Assembly: GCF_005771675.1 (NCBI RefSeq)
Contig: NZ_VAJM01000002.1
Coordinates: 558,001-622,000 of the forward strand
Direction of reading: 5' to 3'
From: Hymenobacter jeollabukensis
Lineage (GTDB): Bacteria > Bacteroidota > Bacteroidia > Cytophagales > Hymenobacteraceae
DNA length: 64,000 nt
In this document: one piece after another, positions 7,143-46,766 of the stretch
How the letters are laid out: the number at the start of each line of letters is the position of its first letter
How positions within the stretch are numbered: position 1 is the first letter of the stretch
Program-made: the position numbers and the translations under genes
The notes under the pieces: generated by a model
Databases searched by the model: none
Seen by the model: the letters and a program-made list of their open reading frames with translations, nothing else
What the model was told of the DNA's origin: nothing

Positions 7143-7174
7143 CAAATATAAAAAGCGGTTTTCAAACGACGCAA
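7143..7174 (-). promoter_or_regulatory. Bacteroidota-type promoter for tRNA-Thr
   Basis: On the minus strand TTG (7174-7172) is separated by 21 nt from TATATTTG (7150-7143). This matches the Bacteroidota consensus TTG(17-23)TAnnTTTG exactly and points at the tRNA-Thr gene, with an expected transcription start near 7136. Confidence 0.75.
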
Positions 7175-7277: not shown

Positions 7278-7736
7278 ATGGCTGATTCGCATTCGGATGA
7301 CCTTATTCAGTCCCTGGTCAGCGGCCTGAGCGGCTCGGTGGTACTGACGCTGGTACACCAGGCCGCCAAAGAGCTGACCCCCGACGCCCCGCGCATGGAC
7401 GTGCTGGGCGTGCGCGGCCTGCGCCAGCTGCTGGCTGCCGCCGACGCTCCGCAGCCCGGCCCCGAAACCGCCTACAACGTGACCATGGCCGGCGACCTGC
7501 TGGTTAACGGTCTCTACTACAGCCTAGTGGGCTCGGGCCCCGACGCGTGGTGGCGCGGCGCGGCCCTGGGCGTGGCGGCCGGCGTGGGCGGGGTGGTGTT
7601 GCCCGGTCCGCTCGGCTTGGGCGACGGACCCAGCAACCGCACCCCGCAAACCAAGCTGATGACCGTGGCCTGGTACACCCTAGGCGGGCTGGTGGCGGCG
7701 GGCGTGTCGCGCTGGTGGAACCGAGCGGCGAAATAG
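7278..7736 (+). CDS. Hypothetical Gly/Ala-rich membrane protein
   Basis: 152 residues with no recognised family. The N-terminal half is amphipathic and contains VVLTLVHQAAKEL and LRQLLAAADAP. The second half has two hydrophobic Gly/Ala-rich segments (about 100-118 and 133-146) that could span a membrane. The stop codon TAG (7734-7736) shares its last base with the first unit of repeat element A. The gene stands alone: the tRNA upstream is on the other strand, and the FkbM gene follows after the repeat. Confidence 0.7.
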   Translation: MADSHSDDLIQSLVSGLSGSVVLTLVHQAAKELTPDAPRMDVLGVRGLRQLLAAADAPQPGPETAYNVTMAGDLLVNGLYYSLVGSGPDAWWRGAALGVAAGVGGVVLPGPLGLGDGPSNRTPQTKLMTVAWYTLGGLVAAGVSRWWNRAAK

Positions 7737-7805
7737 TGAAATGGTGAGGTGGTGAGTTTGACGTTCGGGTAAGCTGCACACCACCTCACCACCTCACCAT
7801 TTCAC
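7736..7805. repeat. Period-8 inverted-repeat element, copy A
   Basis: The left arm is three 8-bp units (GTGAAATG, GTGAGGTG, GTGAGTTT; 7736-7759). The right arm (7777-7805) read on the minus strand is GTGAAATG, GTGAGGTG, GTGAGGTG, GTGTG. The spacer holds GTTC at 7763-7766, 11 bp after the start of the last left unit. The left edge lies inside the stop codon of the gene before it. The FkbM start codon is 21 bp past the right edge. One of six such elements in the window. Confidence 0.85.
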
Positions 7806-37644: not shown

Positions 37645-38352
37645 CTACACCCCAAGTAGAAACACCGCGGGCTGCTTGTGGATATCCGGCAGTCCAGCCT
37701 TTTTCCAGCCCGCCACGGTGTCGGTGCGCAGGTACTCGTTTGGGGCCGTCAGGTTGGCGGCAATGCAGAGGCGGGTGTTGGGCTGCAGGGCGGCCAGCAG
37801 GTCCTCCAGCAGCTGTCCGTTGCGGTAGGGCGTTTCGATGAAGAGCTGGGTCTGGTGCTGGCTGAGGGCCGTGCGCTCCAGGTTTTTTACGGCCGCCGTG
37901 CGCTTGCCCCGCTCGATGGGCAGGTAGCCGTGAAAGGCGAAACTCTGCCCGTTCATCCCCGAGCCCATCAAGGCCAGCAGCAGGGACGAGGGCCCGACCA
38001 GCGGCACCACCCGCACACCCACGCGGTGCGCCTCGCGGGCCAGCAGGGCGCCGGGGTCGGCAATGCCCGGGCAGCCGGCTTCCGACAGCACGCCGGCGTC
38101 GAGGCCGTCCTTGAGCATCACCTGCAGCGCGGCTTTCACCTGGGCATCGGTGGAGTCCTTATCGATGATGCTGAGGCGCAGCTCCTCAATCACCTGGGCC
38201 GGCGCCACCTGCTTGATGAAACGCCGGGCCGTGCGGGCATTTTCGACCAGGAAGTAGCGCAGCGCGGCCACCTGCGCCGGCACCTGCGGGGGCAGCACCT
38301 GCGCGGCCGTATCGTCGGCCAGCACCGTGGGAATGAGGTAGAGCGTGGGCAT
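37645..38352 (-). CDS. RsmI-like SAM-dependent methyltransferase (tetrapyrrole methylase fold)
   Basis: 235 residues from the ATG at 38352. N-terminal LYLIPTVLADD replaces the 'LYVVATPIGN' start of classical RsmI. The conserved VLSEAGCPGIADPG loop, VPLVGPSSLLLALMGSGMNG and ERGKRTAAVKNLE follow. RsmI O-methylates C1402 of 16S rRNA. This shorter version is a Bacteroidota paralogue whose exact target is less certain. The ATG lies one base from element F, which therefore occupies its 5' leader. A frame running further upstream through the repeat is not likely to be translated. Confidence 0.85.
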   Translation of the reverse strand: MPTLYLIPTVLADDTAAQVLPPQVPAQVAALRYFLVENARTARRFIKQVAPAQVIEELRLSIIDKDSTDAQVKAALQVMLKDGLDAGVLSEAGCPGIADPGALLAREAHRVGVRVVPLVGPSSLLLALMGSGMNGQSFAFHGYLPIERGKRTAAVKNLERTALSQHQTQLFIETPYRNGQLLEDLLAALQPNTRLCIAANLTAPNEYLRTDTVAGWKKAGLPDIHKQPAVFLLGV

Positions 38353-38433
38353 ATGAGTGGATGAGTGGATAAGTAGATGAGCAGATGAGTAGCTGGGCGG
38401 ACTTTTCACCCAGTCATCTGCTCATCCACTCAT
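38353..38433. repeat. Period-8 inverted-repeat element, copy F (ATGAGTGG type)
   Basis: The left arm is five 8-bp units (ATGAGTGG, ATGAGTGG, ATAAGTAG, ATGAGCAG, ATGAGTAG; 38353-38392). The right arm (38410-38433) on the minus strand is ATGAGTGG, ATGAGCAG, ATGACTGG. The element takes up the space between two minus-strand genes: the RsmI-like start codon ends at 38352 and the hydrolase stop codon begins 3 bp past the right edge. The octamer differs from copies A-D, but the architecture and period are the same. Confidence 0.85.
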
Positions 38434-38436
38434 CGG

Positions 38437-44500: not shown

Positions 44501-44590
44501 GTGAACTAGTGAGGTGGTGAAATGGTGAGCTGATGTTCTGGTGAAGCAAGCTGCCGGGCAACTCACCATTTCACCGTCTTACCACCTCAC
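44501..44590. repeat. Period-8 inverted-repeat element, copy B
   Basis: The left arm is GTGAACTA, GTGAGGTG, GTGAAATG, GTGAGCTG (44501-44532). The right arm (44559-44590) on the minus strand is GTGAGGTG, GTAAGACG, GTGAAATG, GTGAGTTG. The spacer carries GTTC at 44535-44538. The right edge contains the pdxJ stop codon (44589-44587, TGA, read inside GTGAGGTG). The left edge is 4 bp from the mnmH start codon. Confidence 0.9.
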
Positions 44591-45300
44591 TGCAGCTGCC
44601 GCAAGTACTGCTGAATGGTGTTTTCCAGGCCCAGGTACAGCGCGTCGCAGATGAGCGCGTGGCCGATGCTGACTTCGGCCAGGCCGGGCAGCTGCTGGTG
44701 CAGGAAGGCGAGGTTGTCGAGGTCGAGGTCGTGGCCGGCGTTTACGCCCATGCCGAGCTGCTGGGCCAGGGCGGCGGCGGCGCGGTAGGGGGCCACGGCG
44801 GCTTCGCGGCCCTGGTGGTAGCCCGAGGCGTAGGCTTCGGTGTACAGCTCGATGCGGTCGGTGCCGGTGCGGGCGGCGGCGCGTACCAGCTCCTCCACCG
44901 GGTCGAGGAAAATGCTCACCCGGCAGCCCATCTGCTTGAACTCCTGCACGATGCCGCGCAGATAATCCTGGTGGCGGATGGTGTCCCAGCCGGCGTTGGA
45001 GGTAATGGCGTCGGGCGCGTCGGGAACCAGCGTCACCTGCTCGGGGCGCACCGCGCGCACCAGCTCGATGAAGTCCGGCGTGGGGTTGCCCTCGATGTTG
45101 AACTCGGTGGTGACCAGCGGCTTCAGGTCATGCACGTCCTGGTAGCGGATGTGCCGCTCGTCGGGGCGCGGGTGCACCGTGATGCCCTCGGCGCCGAACC
45201 GCTCACAGTCGCGGGCGACCAGCAGCAGGTCGGGGCGGTTGTGGCCGCGGGCGTTCCGCAGGGTGGCAATTTTGTTGATGTTTACGCTTAGCTTCGTCAT
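44587..45300 (-). CDS. pdxJ: Pyridoxine 5'-phosphate synthase
   Basis: 237 residues forming one TIM barrel. It starts [16 protein letters not shown], followed by [31 protein letters not shown] and [12 protein letters not shown], with [15 protein letters not shown] at the end. PdxJ condenses 1-deoxyxylulose 5-phosphate with 3-amino-2-oxopropyl phosphate to pyridoxine 5'-phosphate, the last step of the DXP-dependent vitamin B6 route. Full length for the family. Its stop codon lies within repeat element B, and element C begins 33 bp upstream of its start. Confidence 0.95.
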
Positions 45301-45333
45301 GAATCCCGGAATTAGCGGATTTTTGCCGCCCCA

Positions 45334-45498
45334 AAGGTGGTGAAATGGTGAGATTGTGAAGTGGTGAGTGTCGTTCCGATGGCATGTATCCGCGTATCAT
45401 CTGCCCTCTTTCATCGGTCTAGGGCAATGGCCCAAGGCACTTGCCTGCGCCGCGTGGCCGTCAACTCACCATTTCACAATCTCACCATTTCACCACCT
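45334..45498. repeat. Period-8 inverted-repeat element, copy C (with 90-bp spacer)
   Basis: The left arm is AAGGTG, GTGAAATG, GTGAGATT, GTGAAGTG, GTGAGTGT (45334-45371). The right arm (45462-45498) on the minus strand is AGGTG, GTGAAATG, GTGAGATT, GTGAAATG, GTGAGTTG. The arms match unit by unit, with a few substitutions. The spacer begins with GTTC at 45373-45376 and is longer than in other copies. The right edge abuts the yqeY ATG at 45499. Confidence 0.9.
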
Positions 45499-45960
45499 AT
45501 GACCCTGAAAGAGCGCATCGACGCCGATATCAAGCAGGCCATGCTGGCCAAAGACAAAGTGCGCCTGACCACCCTGCGCAGCATCAAGTCGCAGATCATG
45601 CTGGCCGAAACCGCCGAAGGCGCCCACGGGGCCGTCACCGCCGATGCCGAGCTGAAGCTGCTCAACAAAGCCGCCAAGCAGCGCCGCGAAGCCGCCGAAA
45701 CCTACCAGCAGCAGTTCCGCTCCGACCTGGAAGAAGTGGAGCTGGCCGAGCTGGCCATCATCGAGGAGTACCTGCCCGCCCAGCTCTCCGAAGCCGACCT
45801 GGTAGAGCGCCTCGTCGAAATCATCCGCCGCGTAGGCGCCACCGGCCCCTCCGACCTGGGCAAGGTGATGGGCGTGGCCGCCCGCGAGCTGTCGGGCCAG
45901 GCCGACGGCAAAGCCATTTCCCAGACCGTCAGCCACCTGCTGAACAACACCAATTTCTAA
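45499..45960 (+). CDS. GatB/YqeY-domain protein
   Basis: 153 residues from the ATG at 45499. It opens TLKERIDADIKQAMLAKDKVR, followed by TLRSIKSQIMLAE, EEYLPAQLSEADL and LGKVMGVAARELSGQADGKA, the pattern of the YqeY family. YqeY resembles the tail domain of the amidotransferase subunit GatB and may act on tRNA-dependent amidation; the stand-alone role is not established. The frame is open upstream, but that stretch is repeat element C, whose right arm ends directly before the ATG. The stop codon TAA is the first three bases of repeat element E. Confidence 0.9.
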   Translation: MTLKERIDADIKQAMLAKDKVRLTTLRSIKSQIMLAETAEGAHGAVTADAELKLLNKAAKQRREAAETYQQQFRSDLEEVELAELAIIEEYLPAQLSEADLVERLVEIIRRVGATGPSDLGKVMGVAARELSGQADGKAISQTVSHLLNNTNF

Positions 45961-46148
45961 TGTGCTAATGCGGGAATGTGCTGACGTGCTAATGATCAAC
46001 AGGTTGATAGCACTTCGGCACACTTCCTCACTAATGTGCTAGTGCGGGAATGTGCTGATGTGTTAATGATCAACAGGTCGATAGCACATCCGCACATTCC
46101 CGCACATTAGCACATCAGCACATCCCTCCACATCAGCACATTAACCTC
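45958..46148. repeat. Period-8 inverted-repeat element, copy E (TAATGTGC type, duplicated)
   Basis: Block 1 reads TAATGTGC, TAATGCGG, GAATGTGC, TGACGTGC, TAATGATC (45958-45997), followed by AACAGGTTGATAGCAC. Block 2 repeats this at 46032-46071 (TAATGTGC, TAGTGCGG, GAATGTGC, TGATGTGT, TAATGATC) plus AACAGGTCGATAGCAC, an offset of 74 bp. A right arm to about 46143 is the complement, with units TAATGTGC, TGATGTGG, TGATGTGC and GGATGTGC and some 2-bp insertions. The element fills the yqeY-cvpA gap; its first three bases are the yqeY stop codon. Confidence 0.85.
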
Positions 46149-46667
46149 ATGTCCGGCTTCGACCTGCTCTTGCTGATGCCCCTCGCGGTGGGGGCGGTGA
46201 AAGGTTTCCGGCGCGGCATCGTGCTGGAAGTCGTGTCGCTGCTGGCCTTCGTGCTCGGCGTCGTCGGCGGGCTGAAGCTGCTGGGTAAGGCCATTCCGCT
46301 GGTGCGGCACTACGTGGGCGAGGCCTTCGGCATGCTGCCGCTGGTGTCGTTTCTGCTGGTGTTTGCCCTCATTGCCTGGGGCGTGCACATGGCCGGCGGC
46401 CTGCTCAAAAGCATGATTCACCTCACGCCCTTCGGCATGCTCGACAACCTGCTGGGCGGGGCTGCCGGGGTACTGAAGTGGGTGCTGGGCCTGAGCCTGC
46501 TGCTCTACGCCACCGGCCTGGCTGGCCTGCCCCTGGGCCGCGACCTGACTCACGGCTCCATGGTGTTGCCGCTGGTGCAGGACGCCACGCCCGTGGCCCT
46601 CAACGTGGTCGGCCTCGTCATGCCCTTCGCCTCCGAATTGCTCAGCACGCTGCGGAACGTTTTCTAG
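46149..46667 (+). CDS. CvpA-family membrane protein
   Basis: 172 residues with four hydrophobic segments, at about 5-22, 25-45, 60-85 and 100-122. The start FDLLLLMPLAVGAVKGFRRG and the pattern VLEVVSLLAFVLGVVGGL are typical of CvpA. LTPFGMLDNLLGGAAGVLKW matches the family's conserved loop, where a Gly-rich turn precedes a helix. CvpA proteins are inner-membrane proteins tied to colicin V production and envelope stress; the molecular role is unclear. The gene is flanked on both sides by period-8 elements (E and D). Confidence 0.85.
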   Translation: MSGFDLLLLMPLAVGAVKGFRRGIVLEVVSLLAFVLGVVGGLKLLGKAIPLVRHYVGEAFGMLPLVSFLLVFALIAWGVHMAGGLLKSMIHLTPFGMLDNLLGGAAGVLKWVLGLSLLLYATGLAGLPLGRDLTHGSMVLPLVQDATPVALNVVGLVMPFASELLSTLRNVF

Positions 46668-46766
46668 CGGTGAAATGGTGAACTGGTGAAATAGTGAGTG
46701 CTGTTCTGGCCTCCCGGACGTCAAGCTCACCGTTTCACCAGTTCACCAACTCGCCAGTTCACCGCC
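46668..46766. repeat. Period-8 inverted-repeat element, copy D
   Basis: The left arm is GTGAAATG, GTGAACTG, GTGAAATA, GTGAGTGC (46670-46701). The right arm (46723-46762) on the minus strand is GTGAACTG, GCGAGTTG, GTGAACTG, GTGAAACG, GTGAGCTT. The spacer carries GTTC at 46703-46706. It fills the space between the cvpA stop codon (46667) and the next ATG (46767). Confidence 0.9.

Follow-up and report, generated by a model that had tools for sequence, protein, structure and literature searches.

Short intergenic gaps in the genome of Hymenobacter jeollabukensis are filled by a class of hairpins whose arms are tandem units of 7-9 nt, drawn from several unit families. The class was studied from a 64,000-nt stretch of contig NZ_VAJM01000002.1 (assembly GCF_005771675.1, positions 558,001 to 622,000), hereafter the window, in which elements B, C, E and D lie in four consecutive gaps around pdxJ, yqeY and cvpA and element A lies at a distance. 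Between related genomes, the unit family found in a gap changes while the gap length stays near constant. We see an even chance that A, B, C and D belong to a dispersed non-coding hairpin family whose copies arose from one another by non-autonomous spread. This level of confidence comes from a core sequence shared by the copies and from agreement between the two arms in two other genomes, G031 and G061 (G numbers denote the genomes compared).

Hairpin elements of the window and their copies

An earlier note, made from the letters of the window, had placed the elements in these gaps, and both positions and neighbouring genes were verified. By Pfam, the four gaps lie in order between a rhodanese-domain gene and pdxJ, pdxJ and yqeY, yqeY and cvpA, and cvpA and a glutamine amidotransferase gene (Table 1). 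Elements A, B, C and D each have arms made of tandem GTGAnnnn octamers opposite TCAC octamers, as the note described for B, C and D. However, the order of units matches between the arms in C alone; the arms of B and D are out of register or diverged. The central GTTC, said to follow the start of the last left unit by 9-11 bp, was found at 11 nt in A, 10 in B and 9 in both C and D. Element E is a 74-nt tandem duplication with the octamer GTGCTAAT, not GTGAnnnn. The elements adjoin genes closely: the outermost right TCAC of B, which is the outermost GTGA of the opposite strand, overlaps the stop codon of pdxJ, and C ends 5 nt upstream of the yqeY ATG. The same element as B occupies its site in G198, and related octamers are found there in G202.

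A period of 8 stands out in the window, with 26 overlapping 40-nt stretches showing at least 28 self-matches; among the eight other periods from 5 to 13, seven gave no such stretch and one gave a single stretch. The strongest period-8 stretches are A and an additional hairpin near 38.4 kb. E reaches 26 self-matches, and B, C and D remain below 26 because their arms are short and variable. When folded as single-stranded DNA, A, B, C, D, E and the 38.4-kb hairpin each scored better than all 200 dinucleotide shuffles (z of -7.9 for A, -4.2 for B, -10.9 for C, -5.1 for D and -7.4 for E). A search of the whole window against Rfam at the gathering threshold gave a tRNA as its sole match.

Table 1. 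Hairpin elements of the window and the genes between them.
Feature	Position	Strand	Description
Element A	7736..7805	.	GTGAnnnn octamer hairpin, core GTTTGACGTTCGGG
Additional hairpin near 38.4 kb	38350..38436	.	GATGAGTR octamer arms
Element B	44501..44590	.	GTGAnnnn octamer hairpin, rhodanese-domain gene/pdxJ gap
pdxJ	44587..45300	-	Pfam PF03740
Element C	45340..45493	.	GTGAnnnn octamer hairpin, pdxJ/yqeY gap, unit order equal on both arms
yqeY	45499..45960	+	Pfam PF09424
Element E	45957..46145	.	Two 74-nt tandem copies, GTGCTAAT-type octamer arms, occupies yqeY/cvpA gap
cvpA	46149..46667	+	Pfam PF02674
Element D	46670..46762	.	GTGAnnnn octamer hairpin occupying cvpA/glutamine amidotransferase gap

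The source genome comprises 6.18 Mb in 27 contigs, one of which, C12, is 814 kb long. The genome-wide scan for copies that the earlier note had proposed, using the pattern GTGAAATGGTGARNNNGTGA with one mismatch allowed, gave 205 matches, which are overlapping array matches and not elements, vs none for the reversed-pattern control. C12 holds 27 left and 25 right arms with three or more units (3 and 1 in the reversed sequence), and 22 of the 27 left arms have a right partner. A typical element is about 100-110 nt long and reads as about four GTGAnnnn octamers, an inner stem (commonest form GTTTGAYGTTC ... GAACRTCAAAC), a core of about 52 nt, and the octamers inverted. The element ends share the consensus RRGYG-GTGA (92 ends, one element counted twice). 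The unit consensus is GTGARNTG, and five words account for 195 of the 250 units in 45 distinct parsed elements (AATG 58, GGTG 41, GATG 37, ACTG 35, AATA 24).

Exactly four units are present in the left arm of 32 of these 45 elements and in the right arm of 28, which argues against free growth of the arms. The growth by 8-bp steps that the earlier note had proposed is supported in part: single arms with 7, 9 or more units do exist, and in G031 the part that varies, in 9-nt steps, is the loop. Unit number can also differ in one arm alone, as at loci L227 (7 vs 4 units) and L164 (5 vs 9). At L154, L177 and L204, GTGAnnnn octamers alternate with the shorter units GTGAGTA and GTGAGTG, so that unit length is not rigid.

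In many cases, copies at different loci share the core as well as the arms. Of 45 cores (40-66 nt), 39 score higher against one canonical core than does the best of the shuffled cores; the set was taken from the source genome, G198 and named records, includes the canonical core itself, and holds a few mutual orthologues. The commonest loop length is 52 nt (11 of 98 pairs). Among 20 source-genome elements that carry the motif on both sides, not one has identical left and right inner spacers (shuffles would give 1.3), as expected for copies of an asymmetric founder, the core being polar. The element at C12 54634-54796, including a terminator-like loop, matches a non-orthologous site in G198 at 83% along its length. 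Many copies with a common polar core of about 52 nt point to descent by copying. Terminator-like hairpins also lie inside the loops of the GTGA elements at C12 54635, 92541, 461674 and 495075. At C12 530693-530760, a long GTGA tetranucleotide run stands beside a CGTCATCCTG palindrome.

Unit families, relatives and orthologous gaps

The GTGA family is one of several. A scan of C12 found 139 inverted repeats, 51 of them with periodic arms at z >3; the periods were 8 (29), 7 (12), 9 (4), 10 (3), 12 (2) and 6 (1), and the 51 include coding sequence and other repeats, chiefly at periods 9-12. Unit families were recognised by eye at 8 nt (GTGARNTG, ATGTGCTR, GATGAGTR, GTGAATGA and TTAAATGG), at 7 nt (AGTTGTC, GAATTMT, GTGACAM and GAGCTAG) and at 9 nt (ATGTGGAGA and CGGATTTNN). 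C12 also carries dispersed palindromes without tandem arms, for example at 7171, 116012, 150284, 251999, 465148 and 784567. These are of the types GTCATTGCGAGCGAAGCGAAGCAATC, CGTCATCCTGAGC...AAGGACCTT and CATGTCGAGC...GAGACATCTCGC, and one GTCATTGCGAGCGAAGCGAAGCAATC-type palindrome sits within the loop of the GTGA element at L010.

Arrays of GTGARNTGGTGARNTGGTGA were present in 87 of 204 genomes of the family, in three of six genera and with 0 to 184 matches each, which together with the genome scan bears out the earlier note's view of a dispersed family. The reversed controls gave 0-3 matches per genome, except for 16 in G202. In that genome the GTGARNTG pattern gave 19 matches vs 16 in the reversed control, and another array may lie behind the high control count. 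In a set of 390 genomes from the order, 49 carry the paired form, and the reversed control gave no match; the paired form has 62 overlapping matches in the source genome and 0-14 in genomes outside the family. Named genomes contain at least 112 stretches. Among the 80 matches listed, 37 lie in Hymenobacter records, the array is paired at 28 of these 37 loci vs 3 of the 43 others, and inner stems are present in the Hymenobacter copies. Species dialects were also seen: GTGAANTTGTGAANTTGTGA has 20 matches in G202, 3 in G201, 1 in the source genome and 0 in G198, and is present in 27 of the 204 genomes. The unit GTGAANTT likewise has 20 matches in G202, 1 in the source genome and 0 in G198.

Gene order around the four gaps is kept in all eight genomes of the genus, the source genome counted, and the units in each gap were compared by eye. 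Gap 1 carries GTGA octamers in the source genome and G198, a related GTGAANTT-type octamer in G202, and 7-mers of GAATGAAG type in G201, G203 and G199. Gap 3 carries GTGCTAAT octamers in the source genome, GTGACAG 7-mers in G198, GTGCTTG 7-mers in G197 and GGGTCTTG 8-mers in G199. Gap 4 measures merely 22 nt in G199, G200 and G203, which are too distant to define borders, so that it could not serve as a clean empty site.

The comparison was extended to about 250 kb of synteny, in which 26 detected source-genome elements (one within yqeY, one doubtful and two sharing one gap) were set against G198 (25 gaps found) and G202 (19). Read by eye, C12 520161 carries AGTTGTC units in the source genome and G202 and TTAAATGG in G198, with flanks 97-98% identical. 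Again by eye, the unit family also differs from that of G198 at C12 604043, 639882 and 94175, and from that of G202 at 517910 and 639882. Where the family differs, the flanks are about 90-98% identical and the gap length is near unchanged. With an automatic threshold, false positives included, a tandem-arm hairpin was detected in 15 of 24 gaps in G198 (none in 9) and in 9 of 19 in G202 (none in 10); several of the gaps scored as lacking one hold visibly decayed copies. Gaps with a hairpin on both sides of the comparison differ by a median of 0 nt (49 comparisons), some gaps being counted from both sides. The detector's false positives at 603613 (in yqeY) and 644473 (a doubtful 9-nt repeat) were left out of the length comparison, as was 603972, which shares its gap with 604043; doubtful rows of G198 and G202 were kept. 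Addition of arms around a bare terminator already in place was considered for C12 54.6 and 92.5 kb, where, by eye, a terminator-like hairpin lies within the loop in the source genome, G198, G202 and G201. In G197, the first locus carries a hairpin that lacks tandem arms and the second measures just 53 nt, which fits more than one order of events.

Origin of the copies

If the copies spread one from another as non-autonomous elements, in the manner of miniature inverted-repeat transposable elements (MITEs) or REPINs, some enzyme or repair route would have carried them. During copying or repair, one arm would sometimes template the other by fold-back, leaving the same variant on both arms, and the arms would afterwards diverge through single changes and slippage. 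Hairpins of the other 7-, 8- and 9-nt unit families would behave alike and could displace an earlier family in a gap. The spaces between a stop codon and the next start would be sites that selection tolerates, and effects on the mRNA would be secondary.

Agreement between the arms is clearest in two genomes. The outer word agrees within the element in 18 of 31 cases in G031 (4.5 expected; 0 of 10,000 shuffles) and in 15 of 23 in G061 (7.9 expected; 1 of 10,000). The inner 9 nt agree in 14 of 23 elements of G061 (2.1 expected; 0 of 10,000), where non-consensus inner stems are equal on both sides in 10 of 19, for example GTGGCCGTT, GTTGGCTGT and GTTTGCCGT; in G031 the inner agreement is weak (17 of 31, 13.2 expected; 131 of 10,000). 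The earlier note's proposal that the arms are kept matching therefore stands for the outer units of both genomes and the inner stems of G061, and hardly extends to the source genome, where agreement is little above chance. Matched stretches in G031 are mostly 69, 78 or about 87 nt long, with one of 60, and the loops read as GCGCANNTG units varying by 9-nt steps. GTGA elements of this genome thus join 8-nt arms and a 9-nt centre in one element.

Several results weigh against copying with arm correction. Agreement between paired units of the source genome, measured over their two variable letters, is 0.537 vs 0.486 when shuffled (43 elements; 115 of 2000 shuffles as high), or 0.558 vs 0.473 (7 of 2000) with two GTGAATGA-family elements included, and strict agreement was found neither in these 43 elements nor in the inner spacers of 20. 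In G031, a non-consensus inner stem occurs on both sides in just 2 of 16 elements. The source genome was also compared with G198 over 17 alignments, leaving out the misaligned 461676 and gaps where G198 has another family or none. In these, 497 pairs are unchanged and 117 changed on one side, 50 of which still pair (G-T counted) and 67 are broken. Changes on both sides number 24 among the 141 changed pairs, where chance would give 12.9, and pairing is kept in 11 of them. By this count most changes affect one arm only; the earlier note had made a lack of covariation between strains a refuting condition. Gaps in which no tandem-arm hairpin can be recognised in the relative differ in length by a median of 6.5 nt (interquartile range -5 to 16; 32 comparisons), and the median element span is 75 nt. 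No clean empty site was seen in these 32 comparisons, and the one gap falling short by 70% or more of the span is that of the duplicated E. Gap length is thus near constant, and presence or absence of a hairpin is unlike insertion vs empty site. No mobilising gene was found in a search aimed at RAYT (the transposase associated with repetitive extragenic palindromic, or REP, sequences) only. Nor was there a long-loop copy able to hold a transposase gene among 98 pairs, the longest loop measuring 489 nt in loci that cover about one fifth of the genome.

The earlier note had named a RAYT as candidate mobiliser. Dispersed hairpin doublets and a single Y1 transposase (RAYT, PF01797) match in the source genome would suit a RAYT-mobilised REPIN family. 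However, the 3.3-kb locus around that match contains no GTGA octamer pair, PF01797 has no match in 10 of 32 genomes with at least 20 element matches (0 in G201, G012, G024, G025, G036, G040 and G060; no entry among the matches listed for G061, G120 and G121), and neither a GTAG nor a CGTC tag was found at the 92 element ends. A RAYT as required mobiliser is rejected on the lack of a match in these ten genomes and on the locus without an octamer pair, and the REPIN reading as a whole is scarcely credible, although a RAYT may have been lost once the elements had spread. Mobilisation as hairpin DNA, which the earlier note had also put forward, may have taken place. Around the RAYT-like gene itself (L041 ~1330-2100; G000 C3, ~154.8-155.5 kb), a GTAG-type palindrome, GTAGTACCAC..., was seen by eye on both sides; it is unrelated to the octamer hairpins. 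A parent element with a gene between distant arms was sought among the loci examined and none was found, and integron attC sites were set aside on conserved gene order alone.

Selection on the transcript is a rather unlikely explanation. The mRNA would need a hairpin just past the stop codon, for attenuation, for 3'-end protection, or for coupling, where a ribosome at termination would unwind the outer stem and so expose the start site that follows; letters would turn over while hairpin and length stay. With genes called by a simple codon-bias picker of open reading frames, C12 has 417 gaps of 60 nt or more: 265 co-directional, 75 convergent and 77 divergent. The GTGA-octamer elements with assigned neighbours number 36, 6 and 2 in the same order (n=44), and the tandem-arm elements assigned to a C12 gap 31, 5 and 1, with 17 of 54 unassigned, in part because a GTG within the element was called as a start codon. 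For 31 of the 36 co-directional elements, no more than 12 nt separate the arm end from the called stop codon, and for 15 the arm ends 2-4 nt past it; relative to transcription, the core points the same way in 20 of 26 cases. A stop-like triplet is found in the 12 nt outside the element at 47 of 92 ends, 35 of them at 2-4 nt (any frame; one element counted twice). Maintenance of gap length through unit-family change and retention of the terminator-like loop hairpin at two loci in G198, G202 and G201 also fit such a role. A pure hairpin function, however, would not need the conserved core sequence, and the distribution is patchy with high numbers in some lineages, 67 of the 117 one-sided changes break pairs, and some relatives' gaps have no hairpin. 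Paired binding arrays for an abundant DNA-binding protein, with the hairpin incidental, would account for the dominance of five words, for the species dialects such as GTGAANTT in G202, and for the same anatomy in Geobacter metallireducens, where IHF/HU binding is proposed in the passages of PMC2700814 that treat these sites. This is highly doubtful, since several unrelated 7-, 8- and 9-nt unit families share one design and agreement between the arms of an element is not predicted.

Two further explanations place the origin of the elements in the gap itself. Birth by replication slippage and template switching only, with tandem repeats in hairpins expanding and correcting themselves and no mobility, agrees with the one-arm expansions at L227 and L164, the 9-nt loop steps in G031, the within-element agreement in G031 and G061, and the lack of clean empty sites; it is distinctly unlikely, since identical words and one polar core turn up at many unlinked loci and also in other species. 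An active process might instead rewrite short gaps in place from a pool of 7-, 8- and 9-nt unit families. Gap length and gene borders would be preserved, one arm would be templated from the other by fold-back, and dispersal would need neither conventional insertion nor a dedicated transposase. Unit-family changes at near-constant length, the arm agreement in two genomes and the 9-nt loop steps suggest such a process, which we nevertheless regard as unlikely.

Relation to known repeats and significance

The earlier note knew of no named family with this design, and none was found in the literature searched; for the Hymenobacter elements, no earlier publication was found in the open-access literature, where most searches covered the best 8-20 of the matching papers. 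Paired four-octamer arrays had, however, been published in 2009 for Geobacter metallireducens. The sections of that paper concerned with its 'global regulator binding sites' describe dispersed arrays in inverted pairs with variable spacing, in class 1 of four octamers GTTGCTYN (24 pairs), in class 2 of three repeats TCTCCGTS (21 pairs) and in class 3 of five heptamers MTYCTGA (8 pairs), with class 1 accompanied by insertion sequences at a constant distance; its authors read them there as possible IHF/HU binding sites, not as a hairpin element (PMC2700814). The Hymenobacter elements likewise have two inverted arrays of about four octamers at variable spacing, but their unit is GTGARNTG.

A repeat-built stem is also described for the P6b stem-loop of Nostoc trnL introns, where 7-nt repeats lie on both sides, two unrelated unit classes occur, units are gained or lost on one side, and one repeat class was repeatedly displaced by the other, according to the relevant parts of PMC4476775. 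Unit-class replacement and one-sided unit change are common to both systems, but P6b is a single locus within an intron, whereas the Hymenobacter elements form a dispersed intergenic family. The portions of PMC4679880 that deal with TAACTGA heptamer repeats report them in Beggiatoaceae, cyanobacteria and five Bacteroidetes as direct arrays, with 1 inverted among 170 sets in the genome studied. These resemble the present elements as short tandem units in gaps with a patchy distribution, and the AGTTGTC family of the source genome resembles TAACTGA on the opposite strand. Such direct repeats lack the inverted partner that most left arms in C12 have (22 of 27). Cyanobacterial STRR sequences presumably belong with the TAACTGA heptamers as tandem gap repeats and differ from the present elements in the same way.

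Prokaryotic MITEs are short, non-coding and present in many copies with inverted ends. The octamer family shares its inverted ends, non-coding nature and multiple copies with them, but showed no parent transposon in the loci examined and no clean empty site. REP, BIME and REPIN sequences are associated with RAYT, and palindromes tagged with GTAG or CGTC are described in the relevant sections of PMC3733652. The present elements are likewise high-copy, dispersed intergenic palindromes, but have tandem-octamer arms, carry neither tag and do not require the presence of a RAYT.

Dispersed intergenic hairpins are common in bacteria, and the present case bears on how those without a RAYT or parent transposon arise. 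Here many copies, several unit families, syntenic close relatives and arms and loops of fixed steps coexist, so that spreading could be distinguished from arm correction and from in-place replacement. Because they adjoin stop and start codons of housekeeping genes, the elements may affect the expression of these genes, and the rapid change of their letters between related species makes them a tractable case for how hairpins spread and are rewritten.

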